A DNA stretch of 64,000 nt from Kordiimonadales bacterium IMCC3096. Its GTDB lineage: Bacteria; Pseudomonadota; Alphaproteobacteria; Minwuiales; Minwuiaceae. The translations under genes and the position numbers were made by a program. Position 1 is the first letter of the stretch. The number at the start of each line of letters is the position of its first letter. A model generated the notes under the pieces. That model saw nothing but the letters and a program-made list of their open reading frames with translations, was not told the origin of the DNA and searched no databases. This document shows, piece after piece, positions 7,036 through 10,393 of this stretch. The stretch spans positions 838,001 to 902,000 of the forward strand of contig CP018227.1 of NCBI GenBank assembly GCA_016865035.1, written 5' to 3'.

Positions 7036-8082
7036 ATGCTTACCATGCCGTCAACGCGTTGCCTGTTCTCCGCCCTGTTACTCGTCACGGCAATGTGGGC
7101 CGTGCAGTCGCAGGCTCAGGACCTTCCGAAGACCGGGAACGGGGCGGGGACCGGGGAAAAGAAGGAGGTCGAGTATGGCACCCTGTCCATCGTGGTGGAG
7201 AATGATTACTTCGCCGGGACGGATCAGGAGTACACCAACGGCTTCCGCGTCGCCTATCTGCGCCCCAAGGGCAGTGTCAGTGACCTGACCGCCCTGCTCG
7301 GCCGGACGCTGCTGGGCGTGCAGGACCGGCGCAAGCTCTATGGCGGAGTGGCTTTCGGACAGAACCTCTACACACCGTCGGATATCACCCAGTCGGCCCC
7401 ACAGCCGGGTGACCACCCCTATGCGGGCTGGCTCTACGGCGAGGTTGCAGCCATCGCAGATGACGACACCCATGTGGAGACCGTGACCGCCAACATCGGC
7501 ATCGTCGGACCGCTGGCCCTGGGCGAGTTCGTGCAGAACACCTTTCACCAGTTGATCGACAGCGATATTGCCCAGGGCTGGGACAACCAGCTGTCCAATG
7601 AACCCGGGCTGATCATCAGCTACGACAGGACATGGCGCCCGTTCAAGGAACAGACCCGTCCCTGGGGTTTCGATCTGCTGCCCAGCGCCGGACTCAGTCT
7701 CGGCAATGTGCTGACCCAGGGCATGGCGGGCCTGACGCTGCGCCTCGGTCCCGATCTGGAGAACGATCTGGGCCCGCCACGCATCCGGCCCAGCCTTGCC
7801 GGTGGCGGCTTCATCGACCCCGACGCGCGCAGGCTGAACTGGTACTTCTTCGGCGGCGTGCAGAGCAGGCTCGTCCTGCGCAACATCTTTCTGGACGGCA
7901 ACAGCTTCCGCAACAGCGCGCGGGTGAACAAGCGCAATCTGGTGCACGACTTCCAGATCGGGGCTGCCGTGCGATGGGAAGGCCTGCGGTTGAGCTGGAC
8001 GATGGTGCGTCGGACGGAGGAGTTCGCGGGCCAGGCCGATCCCCATACATTCGCGGCGATCACGCTGACGGCACGATACTGA
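7036..8082 (+). CDS. LpxR-like outer-membrane lipid A deacylase (DUF2219 family)
   Basis: LpxR proteins are 12-stranded outer-membrane barrels that remove the 3'-acyloxyacyl chain of lipid A. The 348-residue product has a signal peptide ending near VQSQAQ (about residue 28) and a mature region starting with the characteristic block VVENDYFAGTDQEYTNGFR, containing the conserved Asn-Asp and Thr-Asn residues of the family. DHPYAGWLYGEV is the family's H-P-Y-A-G-W motif, and the C-terminus ends in aromatic Tyr as in many barrel proteins. Length fits the family. No strong ribosome-binding site precedes 7036; ATG at 7045 is an alternative. The specific activity is not proven here. Confidence 0.88.
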   Translation: MLTMPSTRCLFSALLLVTAMWAVQSQAQDLPKTGNGAGTGEKKEVEYGTLSIVVENDYFAGTDQEYTNGFRVAYLRPKGSVSDLTALLGRTLLGVQDRRKLYGGVAFGQNLYTPSDITQSAPQPGDHPYAGWLYGEVAAIADDDTHVETVTANIGIVGPLALGEFVQNTFHQLIDSDIAQGWDNQLSNEPGLIISYDRTWRPFKEQTRPWGFDLLPSAGLSLGNVLTQGMAGLTLRLGPDLENDLGPPRIRPSLAGGGFIDPDARRLNWYFFGGVQSRLVLRNIFLDGNSFRNSARVNKRNLVHDFQIGAAVRWEGLRLSWTMVRRTEEFAGQADPHTFAAITLTARY

Positions 8083-8193: not shown

Positions 8194-8247
8194 ATGTCGG
8201 TTTCAACAAAATCAATCATCAATTTTCTGAATTTTTCCGACTCATGA
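8194..8247 (+). CDS. 17-codon leader ORF coupled to the CYTH-CHAD gene
   Basis: ATG at 8194 is preceded by AGGGA at a suitable distance and opens 17 codons (MSVSTKSIINFLNFSDS). Its TGA (8245-8247) overlaps the ATG of the next gene as ATGA (8244-8247). The CYTH-CHAD ATG has only a T-rich stretch upstream with no visible ribosome-binding site, so translation reaching it from this short frame would explain its expression. The peptide resembles nothing I recognise. It could also be a chance frame in AT-rich leader DNA. Confidence 0.45.
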   Translation: MSVSTKSIINFLNFSDS

Positions 8248-9773
8248 ACAAGAATGAGATGCGAGAGATCGAAATAAAGCTGGAAGGACGAAGTCAATCC
8301 CTTGATTCTGCCTTCAAGTCACTTGGCAGTGCACTGGCGAGAACGACAGGCGTCACCAGCATCTATTTCGATACAGCGGACAGGCGTCTCTGGTCCCGAG
8401 GTCTTACCTTGCGGCTTCGGGCCAAGGATGGCCGCCACGAACTCACCATGAAGCGCGAGACCGGTGGACTGGAGCGTGGTGAATGGTCTGCCGTGATCGA
8501 CGGGCCTGTCCCGGATCCGGGAGCATTGCCGAGCGGCGCGCCACGGGAGGAGTTCGGCCTGATCCTGCCGGAGGAACTGACCGAATGGCACCGGACCGAG
8601 GTGCGTCGGCAGAAGAAGATTGCCAATATCGGGGATGCCACGGTGGAGGTCTCGCTGGACCGGGGCCGGATCCTGGCCGCCGGACGGGAGATGCCGGTCG
8701 AGGAACTGGAGATCGAACTGCTGGGCGGACCGGAGAATTCGGTCGCACGGATCGCGCGGGCACAGGTGATGCAGCGCAGCGTCCATGTCGCCGTGGAATC
8801 CAAGGCAGCGCGCGGCGTGGCGCTGGCGGAGGGCGGTTCGCCCGCCTGGCGCAAATTCAAGCGCCCTGTCCTGACCCGGTCTGACACCGTGGCCTCCGCC
8901 TTCGCGACCATTGTTTCCGCCACGGCCCGGCAGGTCGCCGGCAACCTGGCCGCGAGCCGTGACGGATCGGACCCGGAGGGTGTGCACCAGTTGCGGGTGG
9001 GACTGCGCAGGCTCCGGTCGGCCCTGTCCCTGTTTCGCGATCACCTCGGTCCGTCGGCGGAGGGGCTGAAGACCGATGCGCGCTCGGCACTGCAGGCCAT
9101 GGGCCCTGCCCGGGATCTGGACGTCTTTCTGACCCAGATGCTGCCGCCGGTGGAGGCTGCGAATCCCGCTTCGCAACCACTCCAGCGCCTTCGTGAGGCC
9201 GCGGAGCTGGCACGCGGGACCGCCTATGCGGACCTGCGGACCACGCTGGATGCTCGCCCCTTCAACCGCATGCTCATGGATCTGCTGGGCGCCCAGGACG
9301 TGACCCTGCTGCTGAGCGGCACGCCCGACGCGCCGCTGACGCCCGTCGCGACCGGGCTGCTGCGCAAGCGCCACAGGAAACTGATGCGGACCGCCGAAGG
9401 CTTCGCCACCATGCCCCTGGAGCAGCGCCACGAGGTGCGGATCGCGGCAAAGAAGCTCCGCTATGCCATCGATTTTCTGGGTGGTCTGTTCCCGGGTGAT
9501 GCCGCCCGGACATACCGCAAGGGCATGTCACGATTGCAGGATGACCTGGGGCACCTGAACGATGCCGCGGTGACGTCGGATCTGGTCGATCACCTGGCCA
9601 CCGGGGATGCGGAGGCCCAGATCGGGGCGGCCATGGTGAAGGGCTGGTATGCCCATCGGCTGGCGGCGATCGAGCCGGAAATGGTCGACGCCTGGCTGGC
9701 CTTCAGCAACACTCCGGTCTTCTGGAAACAGCCTGGGCCACGCAAGAGCGGCAAGAAGGAGAAACGGCAGTGA
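8244..9773 (+). CDS. CYTH-CHAD domain protein (polyphosphate-related)
   Basis: Two-domain protein of 509 residues. The N-terminal CYTH (triphosphate tunnel metalloenzyme) domain spans about 7-200 and opens with the hallmark ExExK motif in EIEIKLEG (residues 8-15), followed by RLRAKDGRHELTMKRETG. CYTH enzymes act on triphosphates or inorganic polyphosphate. The C-terminal CHAD domain (about 220-490) has the helical histidine-containing repeats HQLRVGLRRLRSALSLF and RHEVRIAAKKLRYAIDFL; CHAD proteins bind polyphosphate and are known to localise to polyphosphate granules. It begins inside the stop codon of a 17-codon leader and its own stop overlaps the following ParA gene (GTGA at 9770-9773). 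An internal start at 8259 is possible. Confidence 0.93.
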   Translation: MNKNEMREIEIKLEGRSQSLDSAFKSLGSALARTTGVTSIYFDTADRRLWSRGLTLRLRAKDGRHELTMKRETGGLERGEWSAVIDGPVPDPGALPSGAPREEFGLILPEELTEWHRTEVRRQKKIANIGDATVEVSLDRGRILAAGREMPVEELEIELLGGPENSVARIARAQVMQRSVHVAVESKAARGVALAEGGSPAWRKFKRPVLTRSDTVASAFATIVSATARQVAGNLAASRDGSDPEGVHQLRVGLRRLRSALSLFRDHLGPSAEGLKTDARSALQAMGPARDLDVFLTQMLPPVEAANPASQPLQRLREAAELARGTAYADLRTTLDARPFNRMLMDLLGAQDVTLLLSGTPDAPLTPVATGLLRKRHRKLMRTAEGFATMPLEQRHEVRIAAKKLRYAIDFLGGLFPGDAARTYRKGMSRLQDDLGHLNDAAVTSDLVDHLATGDAEAQIGAAMVKGWYAHRLAAIEPEMVDAWLAFSNTPVFWKQPGPRKSGKKEKRQ

Positions 9774-10393
9774 TCTCGGTACTGGTCGTGAATGCGAAGG
9801 GCGGCTGCGGCAAGACCACTGTCGCGACAAATCTGGCCACGGCCTTCGCGAATGCCGGTCAGCGCACCGGACTGGCGGAGTGTGACCGCCAGGGCTCAAG
9901 CCTGAAATGGCTGAAGAGCCGCCCCGCCACCGCGGCCCCCATCGAGGCGCTGGACTGGCGCAAGGGCCAGGGCGAGGTGCCGAAGAAGCTGGCACGGCTG
10001 GTGATTGACGCAGGTGCCGGCGTCGACTCGGAAAAGGTCCGCACCCTGCTGAAGGACGCGGACATGATCGTCATGGCTGTCCTGCCATCCGTCTTTGACG
10101 AGGCCGCGACGAAACGCTTCCTGAAGCGGGTTGATGAACTGAAACCCGTTCAGAAGGGTCGGAAACCGGTGATGGTGATCGGCAACCGGGTCCGCGCCAA
10201 CACCCGGGCAGCGCGGGAACTGGACGAGTTCCTGGCTTCACTCGGTCATGACGTGGTGACCCGCCTGACGGACCGCGCGCTGTATCAGGATGTCGCGCGC
10301 CAGGGTCTCGGCATCTTCGATCTGCCCCCGTCCCGCCGTGCCAGCGTCATCGATGACTGGCTGCCCATGGTTCGGCGGATCGAGGAAATCTGA
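9770..10393 (+). CDS. Orphan ParA/MinD-family ATPase
   Basis: Small (207-residue) P-loop ATPase of the deviant Walker A family that positions DNA or large protein cargo. The motif NAKGGCGKTT (residues 8-17) has the signature lysine (Lys10) and catalytic-loop lysine (Lys15). ECDRQGSSLKW matches the family's D-x-D-x-Q-G-S switch and LVIDAGAGVD is the Walker B region. There is no ParB partner and no parS-like site, so chromosome segregation is unlikely. Size and composition resemble orphan ParAs such as McdA or VirC1-like proteins. The GTG start overlaps the stop of the CYTH-CHAD gene, tying the two functionally; a role in placing polyphosphate granules is inference. Confidence 0.87.
   Translation: MISVLVVNAKGGCGKTTVATNLATAFANAGQRTGLAECDRQGSSLKWLKSRPATAAPIEALDWRKGQGEVPKKLARLVIDAGAGVDSEKVRTLLKDADMIVMAVLPSVFDEAATKRFLKRVDELKPVQKGRKPVMVIGNRVRANTRAARELDEFLASLGHDVVTRLTDRALYQDVARQGLGIFDLPPSRRASVIDDWLPMVRRIEEI

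Follow-up and report, generated by a model that had tools for sequence, protein, structure and literature searches.

We report a conserved gene pair of Alphaproteobacteria in which a CYTH-CHAD protein, a candidate adaptor on polyphosphate (polyP) granules, is encoded directly ahead of an orphan ParA ATPase. The gene neighbourhoods, namely the common pairing and three lineages with polyP kinase or exopolyphosphatase genes, support a polyphosphate function of this ParA. PolyP is a phosphate and energy store of bacteria, and that the ParA spaces or partitions its granules with the CYTH-CHAD protein as granule adaptor appears to us slightly more probable than its opposite. Granule positioning is a plausible function of the pair, reached by inference and backed by the neighbourhood evidence. 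The observations behind it are a conserved coupled gene pair, ATPase motifs together with a predicted fold, intact polyP-contacting residues, operons with polyP genes, and joint presence and absence of the two partners. An earlier note on this DNA had proposed such a system: its polyphosphate function is favoured by the pairing and by the three lineages with polyP enzyme genes, whereas neither a conserved leader nor a conserved activating peptide stood up.

Architecture of the gene pair

The window, a stretch of 64,000 nucleotides from Kordiimonadales bacterium IMCC3096, contains the features listed in Table 1. The four-base overlap of the two genes described in the earlier note was confirmed from the ORF coordinates, and ParA translation is expected from the sequence to be coupled to that of the CYTH-CHAD protein across it. 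The claim that the locus lacks ParB proved correct as well: no ParB or ParG-like gene adjoins parA, whose neighbours are the CYTH-CHAD gene, the LpxR-like gene upstream and a FemAB-like gene (Pfam) downstream on the opposite strand, an arrangement that does not amount to a ParABS system. At least five other ParA/MinD-type ATPases are encoded in the source genome, and the window ParA is distinct from them. A second small ParA-like ATPase of the same genome (locus L002, G000:C1:971640-972206) has a 215-codon frame and is 27% identical to the window ParA.

Table 1. Features of the CYTH-CHAD/ParA locus, with positions counted from the first letter of the window.
Feature	Position	Strand	Remarks
LpxR-like outer-membrane lipid A deacylase gene	7036-8082	+	upstream of the leader, 111-base gap
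Leader ORF, 17 codons (MSVSTKSIINFLNFSDS)	8194-8247	+	ATG to TGA; ATGA overlap with the CYTH-CHAD start
CYTH-CHAD gene	8244-9773	+	509 aa, ATG start; candidate polyP-granule adaptor
CYTH (triphosphate tunnel) domain	8259-8816	+	PF01928, 7e-17, residues 6-191
CHAD domain	8913-9587	+	PF05235, 8e-52, residues 224-448; polyP-contacting H, R, R, R, R, Y retained
C-terminal tail of CYTH-CHAD, rich in Lys and Arg (...PGPRKSGKKEKRQ)	9705-9770	+	limited to some genomes of the genus
GTGA shared by the CYTH-CHAD stop and the ParA start	9770-9773	+	four bases
Orphan ParA ATPase gene	9770-10393	+	207 aa, GTG start; Pfam CbiA/ParA 1e-13
Deviant Walker A of ParA, KGGCGKTT	9797-9820	+	K10, G11, G12, G14 and K15 invariant (alignments A1 and A3)

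The coupled 17-codon leader that had been placed in front of the pair does exist, and sister genome G001 also possesses an ATGA-coupled leader of 17 codons with a weakly similar peptide, but its recurrence ends there. No such leader is found in G002, G004, G005 and G008, while the open frames of G003 and G006 at this position are all longer, with 38 or 51 codons. With a match in one sister genome only, the leader was rejected as a part of the system; by itself it could be due to chance or be lineage-specific.

All nucleotide-binding motifs are present in the window ParA, and D39 (Walker A') and D80 (Walker B) are invariant in alignments A1 and A3 just as the Walker A residues are. The AF2 model reached a pLDDT of 88.9 and a pTM of 0.89, and its top Foldseek matches were ParF of TP228 (4e-12), Synechocystis ParA (5e-12) and MipZ (4e-11). 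Judged by motifs and predicted fold, the protein can be assigned to the ParA/MinD deviant Walker A ATPases. The closest NCBIfam model, 'ParA family partition ATPase', scores below its cut-off. In a by-eye alignment, the DNA-binding arginines of chromosomal ParA are matched in part, with basic residues near the R195 region and no counterpart of R224; across the family, residues of this kind show little conservation.

All 12 tunnel sites of the window CYTH domain are intact including ExExK (E8, E10, K12, R57, R59, K70, R122, E135, D139, E154, E156 and K187), which is the pattern of YgiF-type CYTH/TTM polyphosphatases. Most pairs retain these catalytic-type residues, which are degenerate in loci L061 (9 of 12 sites), L059 and L071. 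For the CHAD domain, mutation of H253, R256, R260, R296, R418 and Y419 in CtCHAD is described to weaken polyP binding (PMC6537752), and the equivalents of these six residues are identical in 32 of 32 paired CHADs, while the outer basic patch is partly conserved among them. According to work cited in the same paper (PMC6537752), CHAD proteins of R. eutropha localise to polyP granules in vivo. Since the CYTH sites of L061, L059 and L071 have decayed with the CHAD contacts kept, catalysis looks dispensable to the pairing; going by residue conservation, polyP binding does not look so.

A disordered basic terminus is a feature expected of a ParA-activating partner (PMC10241942). Across the pairs, no conserved disordered basic ParA/MinD-activating peptide was found at either CYTH-CHAD terminus: only 7 residues precede the CYTH domain in the window protein, and this segment is short in other pairs with a clear start. 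The basic C-terminal tail is present in G000, G001, G002 and G005 and missing in G003, G006 and most other pairs, and being confined to part of the genus it was dropped as the activating peptide. A CHAD tree meant to prove that the paired CHADs form one clade was likewise set aside, as its backbone was too poorly resolved to lend support. A plasmid search with the CHAD protein returned mostly rhizobial CHADs.

Conservation and phylogeny of the pair

Each of the seven genomes of the genus has ParA directly after CHAD, as does one other genus of the family. For a wider view we used an even sample of 385 alphaproteobacterial genomes, in which the ParA family was delimited to 18 genomes at E 7e-70 or better, with the next best match at 2e-28. 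CHAD occurs in 17 of these 18 genomes versus 120 of the 367 others (Fisher 1.5e-7, a value that ignores kinship), PPK1 in 18 versus 225, and PhaC in 18 versus 226. Direct adjacency was observed in 10 of the 18, always with CHAD first and on the same strand: in four genomes of the source genus, in G059, G182, G277 and G353, in G088 and in G138. Another seven (G009, G022, G114, G154, G252, G253 and G343) encode CHAD elsewhere, and in the genome of G331 CHAD was not found.

A scan of named genomes extended the picture to at least eight alphaproteobacterial families, with CHAD immediately upstream in 19 of 80 ParA loci. Their hosts include six Azospirillum, Pelagibius marinus and an Inquilinus limosus MAG as well as members of Geminicoccaceae, Kiloniellaceae, Nisaea and Caenispirillum; Indioceanicola profundi contributes one more pair. 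CHAD is the neighbour family that recurs in the largest number of lineages of ParA loci, with the other flanking genes varying. CHAD and ParA overlap by up to 7 nt or stand up to 58 nt apart, with short gaps in most cases, and 4-nt overlaps occur in 4 of the 19 pairs (L065, L068, L075 and L081). Both genes are absent from G007 (f1), the remaining genome of the family, and from G202, G294 and G371 (f81), which all still carry PPK1 and PhaC. Because it is conserved in this way, the pair goes far beyond chance.

In a ParA tree of 107 rows, an alphaproteobacterial clade of 57 (SH-aLRT 96) holds all 33 CHAD-adjacent rows, and CHAD adjacency changes state seven times, far below the value for shuffled labels. 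The pair is either ancient with later losses or was gained repeatedly. By the criterion of the earlier note, its idea would fail if the ParA genes of related genomes usually lacked a CHAD neighbour, and the pairing proved common in the genus, in the family and in this clade (33 of 57 tree rows).

Beta- and gammaproteobacterial relatives of the ParA (35-41% identity) fall nearly all outside the clade. Their neighbours are UbiD, ScpB, EngA and others without an adjacent CHAD, which is encoded elsewhere in 10 of the 15 such genomes above the cut-off. CHAD lies about 3.3 kb from ParA in G632 and about 8 kb away in G609, on the same strand in both; we rejected this linkage as support for being too loose, with other genes intervening in G632. 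The locus in question of this non-alphaproteobacterial genome (L323, 1202-6970) strings the ParA relative, DUF6394, a TrkA-type channel and CYTH-CHAD along one strand of about 6 kb. Viral contigs contained distant ParAs only, with at most 31% identity over full-length matches.

Linkage to polyphosphate genes

In a Rhodospirillales MAG (L061, 3164-8953), CHAD, ParA, PPK2 (2e-106) and PPK1, the latter with all four domains, succeed one another on one strand. A Kiloniellaceae MAG (L084) shows the order PPK1, Na/Pi cotransporter, CHAD and ParA. In Labrenzia sp. THAF82 (L087, 54-5615) and Roseibium (L132, 324-5615), the ParA follows PPK1 and Ppx without an adjacent CHAD, and a ribonuclease D-like gene on the opposite strand separates it from Ppx. 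These two loci are a polyP link of the ParA that is independent of CHAD. A tblastn search with ppk1 on the loci of the phylum sample gave no matches.

Alphaproteobacterial CHAD genes away from ParA often have ppk1 as a same-strand neighbour at a distance of about 2 kb or less, in many genomes of the sample, for instance G045, G170, G172, G191, G269, G306, G312, G320, G345 and G383. The Azospirillum-type genomes G059, G182 and G277 carry a second CHAD near ppk1 beside the one paired with ParA.

Proposed mechanism and alternatives

In the mechanism that we propose, the CHAD domain would let the CYTH-CHAD protein coat polyP granules, where it would serve as cargo adaptor in direct contact with ParA. 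Dimers of ATP-bound ParA would attach to the nucleoid irrespective of sequence until granule-bound CYTH-CHAD triggers ATP hydrolysis and release. The resulting ParA gradient could space the granules and give each daughter cell a share, in the way that McdA handles carboxysomes. Several observations count against positioning: the basic activating peptide is not conserved, the beta- and gammaproteobacterial ParAs lie beside unrelated genes, and of the 18 ParA-bearing genomes of the class sample, seven carry CHAD at another site and one has none found. Generalised to a new class of ATP-driven organelle positioning, in which a ParA and a CYTH-CHAD adaptor act on polyP granules broadly in Alphaproteobacteria and perhaps in Acidithiobacillus, the proposal is tentative and falls somewhat short of an even chance.

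The first of these observations also feeds the main rival to positioning, a metabolic or regulatory ATPase role at the granule, where the ParA-like protein would regulate polyP metabolism, for example as an ATP-dependent switch on CYTH-CHAD or the kinases or through ATPase activity at the granule surface, without moving granules. We consider this unlikely, even though linkage to the polyP-metabolism genes PPK1, PPK2, Ppx and the phosphate transporter would fit it, as would the CYTH catalytic-type residues kept in most pairs, which suit an enzyme regulated by its neighbour, and the lack of a recognised ParA-activating peptide in CYTH-CHAD. The fold and motifs of the window ParA, however, are those of the cargo- and DNA-partitioning ParAs such as ParF and MipZ, whose known members pattern spatially, and L061 has kept its CHAD contacts and the pairing with a decayed CYTH domain (9 of 12), which suits a scaffold better than an enzyme.

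The ParA family might instead position another cargo such as PHB granules, a protein cluster or DNA, with CYTH-CHAD a mere frequent operon companion in one clade. The UbiD, ScpB, EngA and other neighbours of the wider beta- and gammaproteobacterial members speak for this reading, and as the gene for PhaC, the PHA synthase, is present in all 18 ParA-bearing alphaproteobacterial genomes of the sample, presence and absence alone do not separate PHB from polyP granules. Yet none of the 80 ParA loci has PhaC within its flanks, which extend to 5 kb at most, whereas polyP enzymes were seen in 4 of them, and PHB granules were rejected as cargo. Moreover, the CHAD-ParA order persists over deep divergence in differing surroundings, and the CHAD-less Roseibium and Labrenzia ParAs still sit near ppk1-ppx, so that we regard a different cargo as improbable and place it behind a metabolic role. 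Adjacency in one genome alone could arise by chance, and some relatives have the genes apart; a chance or purely positional association with no functional link is nevertheless very hard to reconcile with a pair that recurs in at least eight families in one order and on one strand, overlaps by 4 nt in several lineages, is absent as a whole from some relatives and stands in operons with polyP kinases.

Comparison with known systems

If positioning by the ParA holds true, ParA cargos would extend to phosphate storage bodies and CHAD proteins would gain a function beyond binding. The conserved ParA-CHAD pair is a concrete, deletable candidate positioning factor, also in hosts that are in culture, among them Azospirillum and Pelagibius. 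For polyP granules, a 2025 review of organelle positioning lists AlgP of Pseudomonas as the sole positioning factor, leaving its need for ATP open, and counts those of Caulobacter as still to be identified (PMC13052382). We found no published proposal of a ParA for polyP granules in the literature outside subscription papers and preprints, and the priority of ours is not certain.

Similar in gene content is the conserved folD-ppk1-parA-CYTH/CHAD cluster of Acidithiobacillus, which has been published with an interpretation as cAMP synthesis or signalling tied to polyP, or as copper resistance, and with no granule role for parA (PMC6416229, PMC10892726). It shares with our loci the combination of polyP kinase, parA and CYTH-CHAD, a likeness in published gene content, whereas ppk1 lies outside most alphaproteobacterial CHAD-ParA pairs. 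Should the positioning model be right, it would offer a role for the parA already known there beside ppk1 and CHAD. The window protein has the intact polyP-contacting His/Arg/Tyr set in common with the Ralstonia eutropha CHAD phosins and with the polyP-binding CHAD module in general; it is encoded next to a ParA, a combination that the literature we found describes for known phosins in Acidithiobacillus only.

On the ATPase side, fold and deviant Walker A are shared with ParF of TP228, the nearest solved relative, with MipZ and with chromosomal ParA; the window protein differs from this group in having neither an adjacent ParB/ParG gene nor an N-terminal DNA-binding domain. The proposed outcome, polyP granules evenly spaced on the nucleoid, resembles that of AlgP in Pseudomonas aeruginosa, a histone H1-like tether that has no ATPase, whereas the CHAD-ParA pair would be ATP-driven and is unrelated in sequence. 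McdA/McdB likewise combines a ParA-type ATPase that has no ParB with a neighbouring gene for a protein of a large cytoplasmic body, and its nucleoid ratchet is what we would by analogy predict for the CHAD-ParA pair. McdB carries a disordered, positively charged N-terminus, whereas that of CYTH-CHAD is short and a disordered activating tail was not found on it; in place of McdB, the partner would be a folded CYTH-CHAD protein and the cargo polyP granules.
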